The position numbers and the translations under genes were made by a program. DNA of 64,000 bases, taken from contig NC_007973.1 in the NCBI RefSeq assembly GCF_000196015.1, forward strand, positions 186,001 to 250,000, read 5' to 3'. The notes beneath the pieces are model-generated. The model was not told the DNA's origin and ran no database searches. It worked only from the letters and a program-made list of their open reading frames with translations. The stretch is from Cupriavidus metallidurans CH34. Lineage in GTDB: Bacteria > Pseudomonadota > Gammaproteobacteria > Burkholderiales > Burkholderiaceae. Shown here in pieces: positions 9,691-16,526 of the stretch (position 1 is its first letter; each line of letters starts with the position of its first letter).

Positions 9691-10213
9691 GCGCGGCCGT
9701 CCTGCTGTTTCCTCTCCTCTTTATCCTCGCCTCGGTCGTGACGTTGGTTTGGACACGTCCGCCGTGGCGACGGAACTGTGACGGTCTGCTGCGCAAATGC
9801 CGATTTTGTGCCGCAAACGCATCATTTGTGCCATATTCGATGGCCGGAATGGTTGTCAGGGCCACATAGTGGTTGCTAAACGCCGACATAGAATTGGTGT
9901 TCTCGCCACGCGGTGATTGACATAGGGTGGCGGGTATTCCACTATTTCGTCGCCTCGCCAGTAAAAGTGCTAGTGCTGCCGAAACACGTTTCGACGGAAT
10001 TCGGCAAGCCATAAACAATCAAGAAGAATCCTTTTCGGGTGTGCCGCGAAATCGCTCCACAGAGGGCGGCTCGCGTGCCAACAGTGCCTATCGGGGGTCA
10101 GATGCACAGGGTCAATTCAGGAATCTCGCAGGAAGCTTTGCTCGTCAGCCGGTGGTTGCGCTGACATGGCTCGCCTTCCTCACGCTCGGCTGACCGGGCG
10201 TGGAGGGCGCGCG
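9691..10213. other. Intergenic region upstream of the minor-pilin operon
   Basis: No convincing gene. It contains two direct copies of TTTGTGCC (9805-9812 and 9825-9832, 20 bp apart) and a nested inverted repeat: CGAAAC-AC-GTTTCG at 9980-9993 inside GCCGAA...TTCGGC at 9978-10005. A TTGACA at 9917-9922 has a poor -10 (CACTAT, 17-bp spacer). An 88-codon open frame at 9927-10193 has no recognisable features and is probably spurious. The pilin operon promoter is expected here. Confidence 0.5.
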
Positions 10214-10834
10214 TTGGCAGTCCGCATCGAGGATGCGGATGTCGATGGCGTGCGCGCTTCACGTGCCAACCGGAAGCCTTCTCTCCGTACCGTATCGGGA
10301 TCGGCTGGTCTGACGCTGATCGAGATGGCGGTGACGGTTGCTATCGTTGCCATCGTGGCGGCCATCAGCACGCCGTCGTTCCTCTCCTTCATCCAGTCCA
10401 ATCGCGTCCAGAGCGAGGTGAACTCGATGGTGAACTCACTGCAGTTAGCGCGCAGTGAAGCCATCAAGCGCGGCCAGTCGGTCAGCATTTGTCCGTCCAG
10501 CAATGGTTCCAGTTGCCTGGGCGCCAATACCTGGAATGTCGGCTGGCTCGTGTTCGTGGATCGCAATGCCGATGGTGTTGTCGACACGCCCGCGAACGCG
10601 GCGGATCTTCTGCAGTATCGGGCACCCTGGGCCGGTACCGATACGTTCGTGGCCACACCGACCGCGACATTCGTGACCTACAACCGCGATGGTTTCGGGG
10701 TCAATCTGCCGGGAGGCGCCGTGACACTCGCGGCACAGACCCGTCCAGTTTCGGCTCAGGCCACGCGCTGCATCGCGCTCAACATGGTTGGCCGGCAGAC
10801 CGTGCAGCAATCGGGGGTGGGCGCATGCAACTGA
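10214..10834 (+). CDS. fimT: Minor pseudopilin, GspH/FimT family
   Basis: About 206 residues with a type III prepilin leader: GSAG then LTLIEMAVTVAIVAIVAA, cleaved after Gly32 by PilD, with the conserved Glu at mature position 5. The C-terminal half is a GspH-type beta domain (NSLQLARSEAIKRGQSVSIC, then the VFVDRNADG motif). TTG 10214 was preferred because GGAGGG at 10202-10207 lies 6 bp before it and it shortens the leader; ATG 10166 is also in frame. First gene of a minor-pilin operon; it overlaps pilV by 10 bp. It probably helps prime type IV pilus assembly in the inner membrane. Confidence 0.85.
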   Translation: MAVRIEDADVDGVRASRANRKPSLRTVSGSAGLTLIEMAVTVAIVAIVAAISTPSFLSFIQSNRVQSEVNSMVNSLQLARSEAIKRGQSVSICPSSNGSSCLGANTWNVGWLVFVDRNADGVVDTPANAADLLQYRAPWAGTDTFVATPTATFVTYNRDGFGVNLPGGAVTLAAQTRPVSAQATRCIALNMVGRQTVQQSGVGACN

Positions 10835-11367
10835 AGACGACAGGAAACCGGCACGCCGCGGGCTTCTCCTTGCTTGAAGTTCTGATTGCCCTGGTGATCA
10901 CGGTGATCGGATTGTTCGGCATTGCCAAGATGCAGGCCGCCGCGATTGCCAATACGCAAGTCGCACGAGGACAGTCGCTGATTGCGCTGCAACTGGAAAG
11001 TCTCGCTGGTGCCATGCACGGCAACAAGGGATTCTGGGCGGCCGGTCTGGTGCCAGCGACGTTCAGCATGACAGGCGCGACTGTTACGGACACCACTGGC
11101 AAGCTCAGCACTACCGCACCGGATTGCAAGGCAACGACGTGCACGCCGACGCAACTGGCCGCCTATGACGTCCAGGGCTGGGCCGCGGAGATGAACGCCC
11201 ATTTCCCGACCTATTCGGCTGCCGTCAATTGCGTCGTGCTGATCAACAAGCCCGTCACCTGCACGGTGTCCGCAAACTGGAATGAATCCAATCTGGCATA
11301 CAACCAGACCACGGCAACCCTTGCCGGTCAGACGGCGCAAAGCCTGACGCTCTACGTGCAACCGTGA
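10825..11367 (+). CDS. pilV: Type IV pilus minor pilin PilV
   Basis: 180 residues. The prepilin leader MQLKTTGNRHAAG is cut before FSLLEVLIALVITVIGLFG, with Glu at mature position 5; the segment GFSLLEVLIALVI is the classic PilV form. Cysteine pairs near residues 96-101 (DCKATTC) and 130-145 could form disulfides in the globular head. It begins inside the end of fimT and ends overlapping the pilW start by one base, so it is translationally coupled on both sides. Together with PilW, PilX and FimT it should form the tip complex carrying PilY1. Confidence 0.88.
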   Translation: MQLKTTGNRHAAGFSLLEVLIALVITVIGLFGIAKMQAAAIANTQVARGQSLIALQLESLAGAMHGNKGFWAAGLVPATFSMTGATVTDTTGKLSTTAPDCKATTCTPTQLAAYDVQGWAAEMNAHFPTYSAAVNCVVLINKPVTCTVSANWNESNLAYNQTTATLAGQTAQSLTLYVQP

Positions 11368-12107
11368 TGGGTCAATCAATGCGACACCTTAGAAGAACCA
11401 GATCACGCCAGGCGGGGGTATCGCTGGTGGAAATCATGGTGGCGATGATCATCGGGCTATTCATGCTGTTGGCCCTGAGCACGCTGTTTCTCAATTTTCG
11501 TGGCACCTTCAGGGATCAGGATCAACTGGCCCAGCTTCAGGACAATGAGCGCCTGGCGCTGACCATGTTCTCCACCACCATTCAGTCCGCGGGCTATTTT
11601 CCAGACCCCGTGAACAATGTGGTGACCGGCGCGTTGCCGCTATCGACGGGCAATGCCTATGGCGACTTTGCCGCGGGGCAGGCCGTGGTCGGTACGTCGG
11701 GTGCGAACGGCGCAAGCGATACGCTGACTGCCCGTTTCATGACGGCCAATGGCGATGGCATTCTCAACTGTCAGGGTCAGTCCAATACGTCCGGTGCCAA
11801 TGTGGTGTACGTCAACAGTTTTGCAGTCAATGTGAACAACGAACTGACGTGTGCCATCAATGGTGGCGCGGCGGTGCCGCTGGTCAGCGGCGTGACGGGA
11901 TTCAGCGTCCTTTATGGAACAGACACCGCAAACGGTGGCAACGTCGATCAGTATCTGTCCGCCGCCGCGGTGACCGCAGCTGGGTACTGGCCCCAGGTCC
12001 GTACCGCGAGGGTGACGGTGACCTTCGTCAATCCGTATGCCACGCAACCGAGCCAGCCGGCAACACTGAGCTGGACCCAGACGATCAGCTTGATGAACCG
12101 GTCATGA
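11367..12107 (+). CDS. pilW: Type IV pilus minor pilin PilW
   Basis: 246 residues. The basic leader ends RSRQAG, followed by VSLVEIMVAMIIGLFMLLAL with Glu5, the PilW hallmark. The N-terminal helix continues into DQLAQLQDNERLALTMFSTTIQSAGY, a segment conserved in PilW proteins. It starts at the ATG overlapping the pilV stop (TGATG); an alternative ATG lies at 11379. It ends with an ATGA overlap into pilX. Expected at the pilus tip with PilV, PilX and PilY1. Confidence 0.87.
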   Translation: MGQSMRHLRRTRSRQAGVSLVEIMVAMIIGLFMLLALSTLFLNFRGTFRDQDQLAQLQDNERLALTMFSTTIQSAGYFPDPVNNVVTGALPLSTGNAYGDFAAGQAVVGTSGANGASDTLTARFMTANGDGILNCQGQSNTSGANVVYVNSFAVNVNNELTCAINGGAAVPLVSGVTGFSVLYGTDTANGGNVDQYLSAAAVTAAGYWPQVRTARVTVTFVNPYATQPSQPATLSWTQTISLMNRS

Positions 12108-12700
12108 AACATCCCACGCGCCATCGCCCGCCCGGACGGGGTACCAGTCAGGGTTATGTCCTGATCGTCGGGCTGCTGTTCCTGCTGGTGCTCTCGTTAC
12201 TGGCGGTCTCGATGATGAAGAGCTTCGGCATGCAGGAAAAGATCGCCGGCAATACGCGCGAGAAGCAACGTGCGTTCGAGGCAGCGCAAAGCGCATTGCG
12301 ATATGGCGAATGGTGGCTTGGCCAGGGCAACGGTTCAAGCGGAGCCCTATGCAAAAGCATTGTCAGTGTCACGGCCAATGATTGGTCAAGCATGCAGGTA
12401 TGCAGCAACGCGCTGACTAACCCAACGGCCTTGCCCTGGACGCCGGCGCGTGCCGACTACAGCCCGCCATCTATGGCCGTGGCGCTCAATGGCAATCTTG
12501 GCGGGAAGGCAGCGAGCGGCGACATCAACTATGCGGCCCCGCCGAGCCTCTACATCAACTACCTCGGCCTTTCACAGGACGGGTTGTCAATGCTGTACAG
12601 CGTGACTGGCGCCGGTTACGGCGGCAGCGCGGCCACGGCTGCCGTGGTGCAAAGCACCTATCAGGTTGGCGCGAGTACCAAAGATCTCGGGAAAGAATGA
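12104..12700 (+). CDS. pilX: Type IV pilus minor pilin PilX
   Basis: 198 residues. The leader ends GTSQG, followed by YVLIVGLLFLLVLSLLAVSMMKSFGMQEK. Unlike the other pilins here, the residue at mature position 5 is not Glu, as is usual for PilX/GspK-type subunits that sit at the very tip. The segment EKIAGNTREKQRAFEAAQSALRYGE is the PilX family signature. It overlaps pilW and pilY1 by 4 bases each (ATGA type), so the whole operon is tightly coupled. Confidence 0.86.
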   Translation: MKHPTRHRPPGRGTSQGYVLIVGLLFLLVLSLLAVSMMKSFGMQEKIAGNTREKQRAFEAAQSALRYGEWWLGQGNGSSGALCKSIVSVTANDWSSMQVCSNALTNPTALPWTPARADYSPPSMAVALNGNLGGKAASGDINYAAPPSLYINYLGLSQDGLSMLYSVTGAGYGGSAATAAVVQSTYQVGASTKDLGKE

Positions 12701-15700
12701 TGAGAAATCCTCCACGTCTCGCATTGGTGGCCTCGGCCGTGGCGGCGCTGCTTGCTGCGCAGGCTCGCGCGGTTGTGATTCAGGACAATCTGAATGGGGC
12801 ATCGTCCAGCTATCCATGGACCGCAATCAATGGTGCCTGCCTGACCGCTGGCGATGGCTCGGGGACGATCCCTGGATGCACGGCATCAAGCTTTACGTAC
12901 TACTCGAGCAAGAGTTCGAAGCTCGTGGGCGGCGTGACAGGAACGCTTCCAGATACGGCTGGCTCCGGCGCGCTTCGGTTGACCAATGGTGACACGGGTA
13001 AGGGTTCGAACGGGAACAGCCAGAACGGCGCTGTCGTATCGAACTTCACCTTCCCGATGCAGGAGGGCTTGCAGGTTACGTTCTCCACCGTGACCTATGG
13101 CGGCAATGCATTCGGCAATACCGGTGCCGACGGCATCAGCTTCTTCCTTGCCGACGGCAATCAGGCCGCGAGCGTCGGGGCGCTGGGTGGCAGCCTGGGA
13201 TATAGCTGCTCCAACGTGAACGCTGTCTATGACGGGGTGGTTGCCGGTTACATCGGGATCGGCATCGACGAGTATGGCAACTTCTCCAATGGGAGTTCCG
13301 GTGGCTCCAAGAATGACAACACCAGCACTGGACCGGGTTTCAAGGCGAACCGGATCAGTATTCGTGGCTCGGGGAATACGAACTGGGCAAATCTGCTGGC
13401 GACCTACAACTCGTACTACAAGAAGGTCCCCACATCGAAGATTCCTACTGCGGTGCAGAACACGTGCGCTGCAGGATATGTACAAGACTGGTCGAGTGGC
13501 AAGGACAATGGCTCGGTAACAAGCAAGCCACTGGCCTACAACTACAACTTCATTGCATCGAGCGATCTGCCGAACGCGATCGCGAACCAGCAGGCCACAG
13601 CCACGCCAACCCGTGGCAAGGCCATCCCGATCGTCTACTCGCTCAAGCTCACGCAAAACGGACTGCTGAGCATGTCGTACAGCTATAACGGCGGTGCGGC
13701 CACGCCAATCATCACGAACCAGGACATCACGAAGTCGAACGGACCGGTGCCGACCCAGTTCCGTTTCGGGTTTGCCGCTGGCACCGGTAGCGGTAGCAAC
13801 GTTCATGAGATTACCTGTTTCAAGGCGGAGCCTGTTGGTCAGTCAAGCAGTTCGGCAGGCACCAACGTGCAGCAGTCCGCGCGCGTGGAAGCTGGATCGC
13901 AGGTGTACCTGGCCTACTACCATCCGACCAACTGGTGGGGAGAGCTGAGCGCGCAGAACCTGCTCTACGACGCTTCGAGCGACACGGTCTCGATGAGCAC
14001 CACCGCCAACTGGAATGCAAGTTGCGTGCTGACCGGTGGAAGCTGCCCGTCCACTGGCGGCACCAACACCGCGCAATCTCCGACCGCGCGAAAGATCCTC
14101 ACCTGGAGTGGCTCGACTGGCATCCCCTTCCGCTGGGATAGCACCTATACGCCGCCAGCTGCCGTGCAGACACTCATGACCGCGGGCGACGCCAGTGCGA
14201 CCAACAAGCGCCTGAACTATCTGCGCGGCGACCGTACCAACGAGATCACGACATCAGGAACGGGTTTGTATCGCGCACGCACGGGCGTGCTGGGCGACAT
14301 CATGGATTCAAGTCCGACCTGGGTGGGGGCGCCTTCCTCGCCCTACAGCGGGCCCTGGACGGACGCCCTGTACAAGACCGCCACCGCTGCAGAGCCAAAA
14401 GGCAGCTATGACACGTTCAAGCAGAACAACGCGCTGCGCCAGAATATCGTCTACGTCGGGGCCAACGATGGTCTGCTGCACGGCTTCCGTTCCGGCTACT
14501 ACGACGCGGGCGGAAACTTCGTCGGCAGCGATGCCAGCAAGCCGAATGACGGGAGCGAGGCGATCGCTTACATGCCGGGCGCCGTGCTGAAGACGATCCA
14601 TTCCTCGACCAGTGCGCTGGACCTCGCCTCGGCGCAGTATGTGCACAACTACTTCGTGGATGCGACGCCAGGCACGGGCGATCTCTACTATCAGAATGCC
14701 TGGCATACGTGGCTGGTTGGAGGCCTCGGTCCCGGCGCGAACGCAACCGGGCCGATCGGCGACAAGACGACGACGGGTACGGGTGGTGCCATCTACGCGC
14801 TCGATGTCACGAACCCTGCCGGGTTTGCCGATGACGCCGCAACGGCAAGCAGCCTGGTAATCGGCGAGTGGGACAACACGCTGAAATGCACCGGTAATAC
14901 CGGCTGTGGCACGAACCTTGGAAACACCTACGGCACACCGGTGATTCGCCGCCTGCACAACGGCAACTGGGCGGTGCTGTTCGGCAACGGCCTGAACAGC
15001 GCATCCGGCTCGGCGGGACTGTATGTGATGCTGGTCAACCCGGCGGACGGCTCAAAGTCGTTCCTGTACCTGGATACGGGATACGGTCCGGCCAAGGATC
15101 CGGCCGGCAAGAATTCCAAGAATGGCATTGCCTATGTGACACCCGCGGATCTCGATGGCGACCACATTACCGACTACGTCTATGCCGGCGATATGTTCGG
15201 CAATGTCTGGCGTTTTGACCTGACTTCGAACACGCCTGCCAACTGGAGTGCGTCGGCCAAGCCGCTGCTGGCCACCGGGCTCCCCATTACCAGCAAGGTT
15301 GCCGTGGCTGCCGTGCCCGGCAGCGGCACCGGGGCCAATGCGATACCGCGTGTCATGGTCAGCTTCGGCACCGGTCGTCGCCTGGAACAGACGCAGAGCA
15401 GCGAAGCTGTGTTCGAGAGCGCCACCCAGTCACTTTTCGGTGTGTGGGACTGGAACATGACGGCATGGAACGGCGTGGCCCCGGCCAGCGCGAAGTATGC
15501 GGCGTTGGCAACCGCGCCGCAGCCGCTGGCAATCGCCAACCTTACGGCGCAGTCGATCACCAACGAAGGCCGCGCCAGTTCGAATACCGCGATGTTGCGC
15601 ACGGTCAGCGCCACCGCCGTCTGCTGGCAGGGCAGTACCGTTTGCTCCAGTGGCAACACCAAGTATGGCTGGCAATTGCCGCTGTCCACGAATCCTGGCG

Positions 15701-16082: not shown

Positions 16083-16526
16083 ATGAACCGTCGACCAAAA
16101 CATTCCGCGGGCTTTTCGCTTGTCGAACTCATGATCGTCGCGATAATCGTCGCGATCCTGGCGGCTATCGCATTCCCTTCGTACATGCAGCATGTGCGCA
16201 AGTCACGTCGAACCGATGCCAAGACGGCGTTGCTCGATGCTGCGGCAAGGCAGGAGAAGGTCTTTAGTACGCAAAACCTGTACGGTGGCGCCCCGGGCGA
16301 TCTGGGCTACGCGGGCGCCGCGTATCCGGTGCAGATTCAATCGAGCGGACAAACGTTCTATCAGCTCACCGTTGCCACAGCCAACTCGGGTACGACGTAC
16401 ACGGCCACGGCCGCGCCGGTCGGCGCGCAGGCCGGGGATGACTGCGGCTCGTATGTCATCAACAATCTGGGCGTGCAGTCCAACACCGGGACGTCCAACG
16501 GGGCCACGTCCGCCACCTGCTGGTAG
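16083..16526 (+). CDS. pilE: Type IV pilin PilE-like minor pilin
   Basis: 147 residues. The leader MNRRPKHSAG is cleaved before FSLVELMIVAIIVAILAAIAFPSY, a very typical type IVa pilin N terminus with Glu at mature position 5. Two cysteines (DDCGSYV and ATCW at the extreme C terminus) form the expected D-region disulfide. The last gene of the operon, 2 bp after pilY1. The position suggests the minor pilin PilE of the fimU-pilVWXY1E type rather than the major pilin, which is usually encoded elsewhere. Confidence 0.88.
   Translation: MNRRPKHSAGFSLVELMIVAIIVAILAAIAFPSYMQHVRKSRRTDAKTALLDAAARQEKVFSTQNLYGGAPGDLGYAGAAYPVQIQSSGQTFYQLTVATANSGTTYTATAAPVGAQAGDDCGSYVINNLGVQSNTGTSNGATSATCW

Follow-up and report, generated by a model that had tools for sequence, protein, structure and literature searches.

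What the tips of type IV pili stick to is a long-standing question, and the variable N-terminus of PilY1 is thought to set it. The question arises for a pilY1 gene of Cupriavidus metallidurans CH34 located in the window, i.e., the whole stretch of 64,000 nucleotides that was analysed (contig NC_007973.1, positions 186,001 to 250,000 of the forward strand). A first-pass annotation, made from the letters of the sequence, had read the N-terminal part of its product as an L-type lectin fold replacing a von Willebrand A (vWA) domain. Is this head a lectin, is the protein that carries it a PilY1, and what would such a head do on a pilus?

A PilY1 protein among minor pilins

The C-terminal part of the window protein matches the PilY1 family PF05567 at 110.6 bits, against a cut-off of 28.1, and residues 506-1124 align with PDB chain 3hx6, the solved Pseudomonas PilY1. 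Two of the four aspartates of the calcium loop DLDGDHITD are invariant and the other two are at least 90% conserved among 49 full-length proteins, Ca2+ binding by this loop being predicted. The C-terminal beta-propeller and the calcium loop announced by the first-pass annotation are thereby confirmed. With NCBIfam, the single match was to the Neisseria PilC, at a score below the cut-off.

The gene has four prepilin genes upstream, which overlap, and a PilE/ComP-type pilin gene downstream (Table 1); the set FimT-PilV-PilW-PilX-PilY1-PilE/ComP is a minor-pilin operon of the usual kind. Similar surroundings were found at the loci of the lectin-type relatives described below, with 2 to 4 prepilin-like ORFs, mostly at similar spacing, in 68 of the 68 loci having at least 3 kb upstream and at least one such ORF in 50 of the 63 loci having more than 1 kb downstream, as counted by a crude finder that flagged, within the window, the 5 true prepilins and 5 others among 334 ORFs. 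Promoter-like sites (2 versus 2.0 expected) and terminator-like sites (3 versus 4.9 expected) were not above the level of shuffled sequences. Judged on its propeller, its calcium loop of predicted binding and its minor-pilin neighbours, the window protein is a member of the PilY1/PilC family.

Table 1. Features of the pilY1 locus, in positions of the window.
Feature	Position	Strand	Evidence
FimT/FimU-type minor pilin (GspH domain, class III signal)	10166..10834	+	PF12019 E 5.5e-21, PF07963, prepilin motif
PilV-type minor pilin	10825..11367	+	TIGR02523 E 1.3e-13, 51.7 bits (just below cut-off 52.2); PF07963
PilW-type minor pilin	11364..12107	+	PF16074 E 1.5e-9
PilX-type minor pilin	12104..12700	+	PF14341 E 4.3e-14, PF13681 E 1.4e-12
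PilY1, 1127 aa	12697..16080	+	PF05567 E 1.1e-31; PDB 3hx6 E 2.3e-36
Signal peptide, residues 1-25 (end ...AQARA)	12697..12771	+	read by eye from the sequence
L-type-lectin head (by profile), residues 26-377	12772..13827	+	PF18483 in relatives; PDB legume lectins by profile; PF18483 in own genome, below cut-off
D145 of GADG, putative sugar-site Asp	13129..13131	+	D in 79/79; aligned with peanut-lectin ADG
D191-E-Y-G-N195, putative Ca2+/sugar motif D-x-[YF]-x-N	13267..13281	+	aligned with peanut-lectin DTYSN
D207, possible further Ca2+ ligand	13315..13317	+	D in 77/79
Joining region (YLAYYHPTNWWGEL...), residues 386-530	13852..14286	+	common to other PilY1 classes by profile
PilY1 beta-propeller, residues 532-921	14290..15459	+	PF05567
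Propeller Ca2+ loop DLDGDHITD, residues 818-826	15148..15174	+	conserved aspartates
PilE/ComP-type pilin	16083..16526	+	PF16732 E 3e-22, PF07963

Lectin identity of the head by sequence

For the window's own head, no Pfam family is listed by hmmscan. Relatives were collected by a pattern-aided search requiring G[IM]DE[YF]GNF or N[VIF]HEI[TL]CF at each locus, which found 418 of them, and the best 80 of the 418 were kept. The window and 78 of these 80 form a head alignment of 79 rows, from which one relative that is cut off (L102) and one that is interrupted (L105) were excluded. At E ≤ 0.01, the legume lectin beta-barrel family PF18483 was detected in 65 of the 79 aligned heads (best E 2.6e-11), the legume-like lectin family PF03388 in 13 and the legume lectin family PF00139 in 1; one match to a viral envelope family (E 0.0029) was taken as chance. 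When PF18483 was run against the genome of the window, the window head was the sole match at E ≤ 0.001, with an E-value of 6.7e-6 over profile positions 22-212 of 215 and a score of 27.3 bits, which is below the curated Pfam cut-off of 78.3.

The profile of the 79 heads was also compared with the PDB, where 72 sequences matched at E ≤ 10 and the 60 best of these 72 are all lectins by name, peanut lectin (E 1.1e-4) and 7elv (E 1.4e-4) being at the top. For comparison, the N-terminal regions of 39 other PilY1 proteins, each still including some propeller, were made into a control profile, which gave no lectin among its 11 PDB matches at E ≤ 1. Profile-profile comparison of the heads with three other L-type lectins gave a partial match of 74 columns around GADG (probability 83.8, E 7.9e-6). 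Residues 26-377 of the window PilY1 are thus supported, by sequence profile, as an L-type (legume-like) lectin domain. The five motifs on which the first-pass annotation had relied occur in the order claimed (residues 143-154, 164-170, 184-195, 218-224 and 355-372), and its reading of an L-type-lectin-like head at the place of a vWA domain agrees with the Pfam families, the PDB profile search and the conservation of the expected site; its range for the head, 12697..13840, overshoots the end by 13 bases.

Concanavalin-like glycoside hydrolases and lyases have the same jelly-roll fold, and the head could in principle be one of these enzymes, cutting a polysaccharide instead of holding it. We regard this as very improbable: of the four Pfam families seen on the 79 heads, three are lectin families, one is the viral envelope family attributed to chance and none is an enzyme, the 60 best PDB matches are lectins, and the ExDxxE motif of concanavalin-like enzymes is absent at GIDEYGN.

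Two side observations concern the head region. In three relatives (L031:6232-8007, L035:6467-8305 and L036:6367-8163) a repeat-like insert splits the lectin head at head residues ~240 to ~270, and a smaller insert of the same kind splits that of a fourth (L034:6779-8143). In the window, a 306-aa open frame runs antisense inside the head (12886-13806, minus strand) and was taken as a mechanical ORF.

A putative calcium and sugar site

We take the Asp of GADG to be the sugar-binding Asp of legume lectins, and DEYGN to hold their Ca2+ ligands together with the sugar-binding Asn, while D207 is presumably one more Ca2+ ligand, by likeness to the same lectins. In the 79 heads, D145, G164, D191, Y/F193 and G364 are conserved 79 times, N195 78 times and D207 77 times, and each of the five cysteines of the head is invariant (79 of 79). 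The D-x-[YF]-x-N and NxHEI stretches both served as search patterns, and their conservation is in part built into the search; this does not apply to D145, G164, D207, G364 and four of the five cysteines, which lie outside the patterns. Of seven PilY1-type heads in set A2, six were found without the patterns, and D145, G164, D191, E192, N195, D207 and G364 are invariant in all seven. The residues of the L-type lectin Ca2+/sugar site are thus, as far as the alignment tells, present in the head and conserved, the conservation being in part by construction.

At what we assume to be the position of the legume-lectin Mn2+-site Glu, the heads have Gly (77 of 79) or Ala (2 of 79), so that any metal site of the head would be a Ca2+-only site. 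Animal L-type lectins are likewise not known to have the second (Mn2+) metal site.

The loss of this Glu, together with the existence of L-type lectin folds that do not bind sugar, would fit a head that keeps the lectin fold as a Ca2+-stiffened cap, acting on a protein or on the pilus itself in assembly or force sensing. Such a cap would need none of the sugar-site residues, whereas D145, G164, N195 (partly by construction) and G364 equal the Ca2+ ligands in conservation, and we consider it unlikely.

The vWA question and other PilY1 heads

A further reading takes the N-terminus for a vWA domain that has diverged, the lectin motifs being coincidental. No Pfam vWA match was obtained by hmmscan in the window head or in the 79 aligned heads, which is a weak test: Pfam detects vWA in the N-terminal part of only 1 of the 39 other PilY1 proteins, so that vWA heads among them are not countable in this way and the silence of Pfam on the lectin-type heads counts little. 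The consensus of these 39 proteins shows PNxxLxLDxS, and in the accessible part of a 2026 study a vWA N-terminus is attributed to a third of fifteen published PilY1 proteins (PMC13190605). These points would favour a hidden vWA domain, but the lectin matches are positive ones (Pfam families, PDB, PF18483 in the window's own genome) and the head profile matched none of the 39 other PilY1 proteins at E ≤ 10, which leaves this reading the faintest of probabilities. As only a third of the published proteins have a vWA domain, it is not needed for membership of the PilY1 family.

The genome of the window encodes a second PilY1 on another contig (L041:5524-8877), the C-terminal part of which is about 24% identical to that of the window protein over the BLAST match. 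Its N-terminus looks vWA-like by eye (NVLIVLDNASAW), with no Pfam vWA match.

In the literature, the published PilY1 heads named in the accessible text of the 2026 study are vWA and DUF4114 only, and the word lectin is absent from its main text (PMC13190605). Available portions of other papers describe a vWA domain in the Acidithiobacillus PilY1 (PMC6322766), a DUF239 domain in a Xanthomonas PilY1, in an older paper (PMC4768671), and, for Variovorax paradoxus EPS, three pilY1 genes, of which two show no significant conservation at the N-terminal site (PMC3283707). The accessible portions of two further papers make no mention of a lectin head (PMC9210963, PMC6580516). A search of titles and abstract beginnings, covering few subscription journals, returned no report of an L-type lectin in PilY1 among the matches listed.

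A PilY1 class of its own

A propeller tree was built by a quick method from 79 rows, 41 of the lectin type and 38 other PilY1 proteins. The lectin-type rows were hand-picked and consist of the window, 32 loci of the pattern-aided set and 8 from another search; the others come from 40 regions hand-picked among the PilY1 matches listed, one of which was empty and one of which (L122) was left out. The second PilY1 of the window's genome, which the propeller profile did not match, is absent from the tree. All lectin-type propellers fall on one side of a single branch with a support of 100 and a length of 0.75 changes per column. As the lectin-type rows were sampled by way of their heads, propellers of the same group without a lectin head could be missed.

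The tree bears on the domain swap proposed by the first-pass annotation, which stands as a description of the architecture but not as an event in the window's genome: a recent swap there is not favoured, since the sampled lectin-type propellers form one group, and the lectin type appears to be a PilY1 class of its own. A profile of the joining region (residues 386-530) matched 29 of the 39 other PilY1 proteins at E < 1e-3, so that the lectin types would differ from other PilY1 proteins chiefly by the head.

A PilY1 C-terminus was found by BLAST in 74 of the 80 relatives; four are without it (L091, L095, L100, L119) and two, L102 and L105, are incomplete. The C-termini of L091 and L100 give no PF05567 match, and these two, with L095 and L119, possibly carry a diverged propeller on a lectin head. 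On the sequence data, the lectin-headed PilY1 class appears real, widespread and, as far as our searches reach, undescribed.

Distribution of the lectin head

PF05567 is present in 135 of 200 genomes of the order, and the lectin head in 15 of as many drawn from it, the window's own included; by position, the head lies on PilY1 in 11 of these 15 genomes and on another protein in 5, one genome having both. In the class, the head was found in 11 of 369 genomes at E ≤ 1e-5, and PF18483 in 6 of 200 genomes of the phylum, the window's own being included in both counts. The sample includes one other genome of the genus, in which PilY1 matched twice and no lectin head was found. The relatives that bear names include Cupriavidus, Ralstonia, Variovorax, Aquabacterium, Dyella, Halothiobacillus and Mangrovitalea. 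One metagenome bin with a lectin-type locus (L107) bears the label Terrabacteria, possibly through erroneous binning.

A single PilY1-family match was found in 4 of the 11 genomes that have the head on PilY1 (G074, G079, G162, G196), a count limited by draft genomes and weak family matches. This suggests that the lectin-type PilY1 also primes pili there, and it counts in favour of the sugar-free cap considered above.

The same head on MshQ-like proteins

The head is not confined to PilY1. With the A3 profile it was found on another body in five proteins (L032, L037, L038, L039, L040; E 9.6e-28 to 1.7e-24). DUF6701 (PF20419) was detected in both of the two that were scanned, and the remaining three, one of which is cut off by a contig end, look alike by eye. 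All five sit after 3 to 6 prepilin-like ORFs, and mshQ likewise follows prepilin genes in MSHA operons. In the head tree, four of these five heads form a branch separate from the 38 heads of the PilY1 type. The accessible text of PMC7096442 refers to MshQ as a putative MSHA adhesin. A literature search on DUF6701 by name found no report.

Proposed role at the pilus tip

We propose that the window PilY1 is probably a type IVa pilus tip adhesin, the L-type lectin jelly-roll head of which binds glycans through one Ca2+-organised site; we infer the three-dimensional fold, the binding of Ca2+ and sugar, the ligand and, for this organism, the location at the tip. By analogy with other PilY1 systems, the C-terminal propeller would combine with the complex of minor pilins FimT-PilV-PilW-PilX and prime the pilus, and the N-terminal lectin head would be the outermost part of the tip. 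The accessible text of a modelling study of the Myxococcus and gonococcal complexes describes the same order, with the propeller inward and the N-terminal domain outermost (PMC13190605). The predicted glycan site would be made of D145 (GADG), D191-x-Y193-x-N195, D207 and the loop around G364. Once extended, the pilus would hold a polysaccharide of a matrix, a plant, a fungus or another glycan-bearing surface, and would pull on it by retracting.

A broader reading, which we put forward as somewhat less likely than not, is that the lectin-tipped proteins are a third, old and widespread PilY1 class, and that two pilus systems share a glycan-reading tip, the same lectin family being found on the MshQ-like proteins of MSHA-type pili. 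One PilY1 could then both start the pilus and read sugars, since the lectin type is the sole PilY1 found in some genomes, and glycan capture would be coupled to retraction and surface sensing.

If the lectin head binds as proposed, such pili may grab surfaces by sugar recognition. The proteins occur in Cupriavidus, Ralstonia, Variovorax and other bacteria; if soil and water are the habitats of these, recognising sugars could be of use where they meet plants, fungi or biofilms. The lectin head would widen the known set of PilY1 heads, and as it belongs to a well-understood lectin class, it makes binding at the pilus tip directly testable.

Comparison with known systems

The window protein has the propeller, the Ca2+ loop, the joining region and the minor-pilin operon in common with the vWA-headed PilY1/PilC proteins of Pseudomonas, Legionella and Acidithiobacillus, but it differs from them by its L-type-lectin-like head and by a propeller that stands apart from the 38 others sampled. 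With the L-type lectins of PF18483, PF03388 and PF00139 (legume lectins and, presumably, ERGIC-53), the head shares GADG, D-x-[YF]-x-N and a late GGxxN loop; legume lectins have the Mn2+-site Glu, whereas the window-type head is without it, and the latter further differs from L-type lectins by its five invariant cysteines and its fusion to a pilus protein. The DUF6701 (MshQ-like) proteins resemble the window PilY1 in their head family and their prepilin-like neighbours, and differ by another C-terminal body (PF20419 in both of the two scanned) and by heads of which four lie on a separate branch.

Two published systems come close in architecture or function. According to the available text of PMC9109919, PilY1.1 and PilY1.2 of Myxococcus xanthus are likewise PilY1 proteins with an N-terminal domain, there a DUF4114, and binding of Ca2+ and (exo)polysaccharide is proposed for the DUF4114 head of PilY1.1; this domain is of another Pfam family and is likened to the lectins BclA, RS-IIL and PA-IIL, not to L-type lectins. 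PilC of Streptococcus sanguinis carries a glycan-binding lectin module, modelled at the tip of a type IV pilus, but in the accessible part of that work PilC is a minor pilin and not a PilY1, and its module is galectin-like (PMC9934059).
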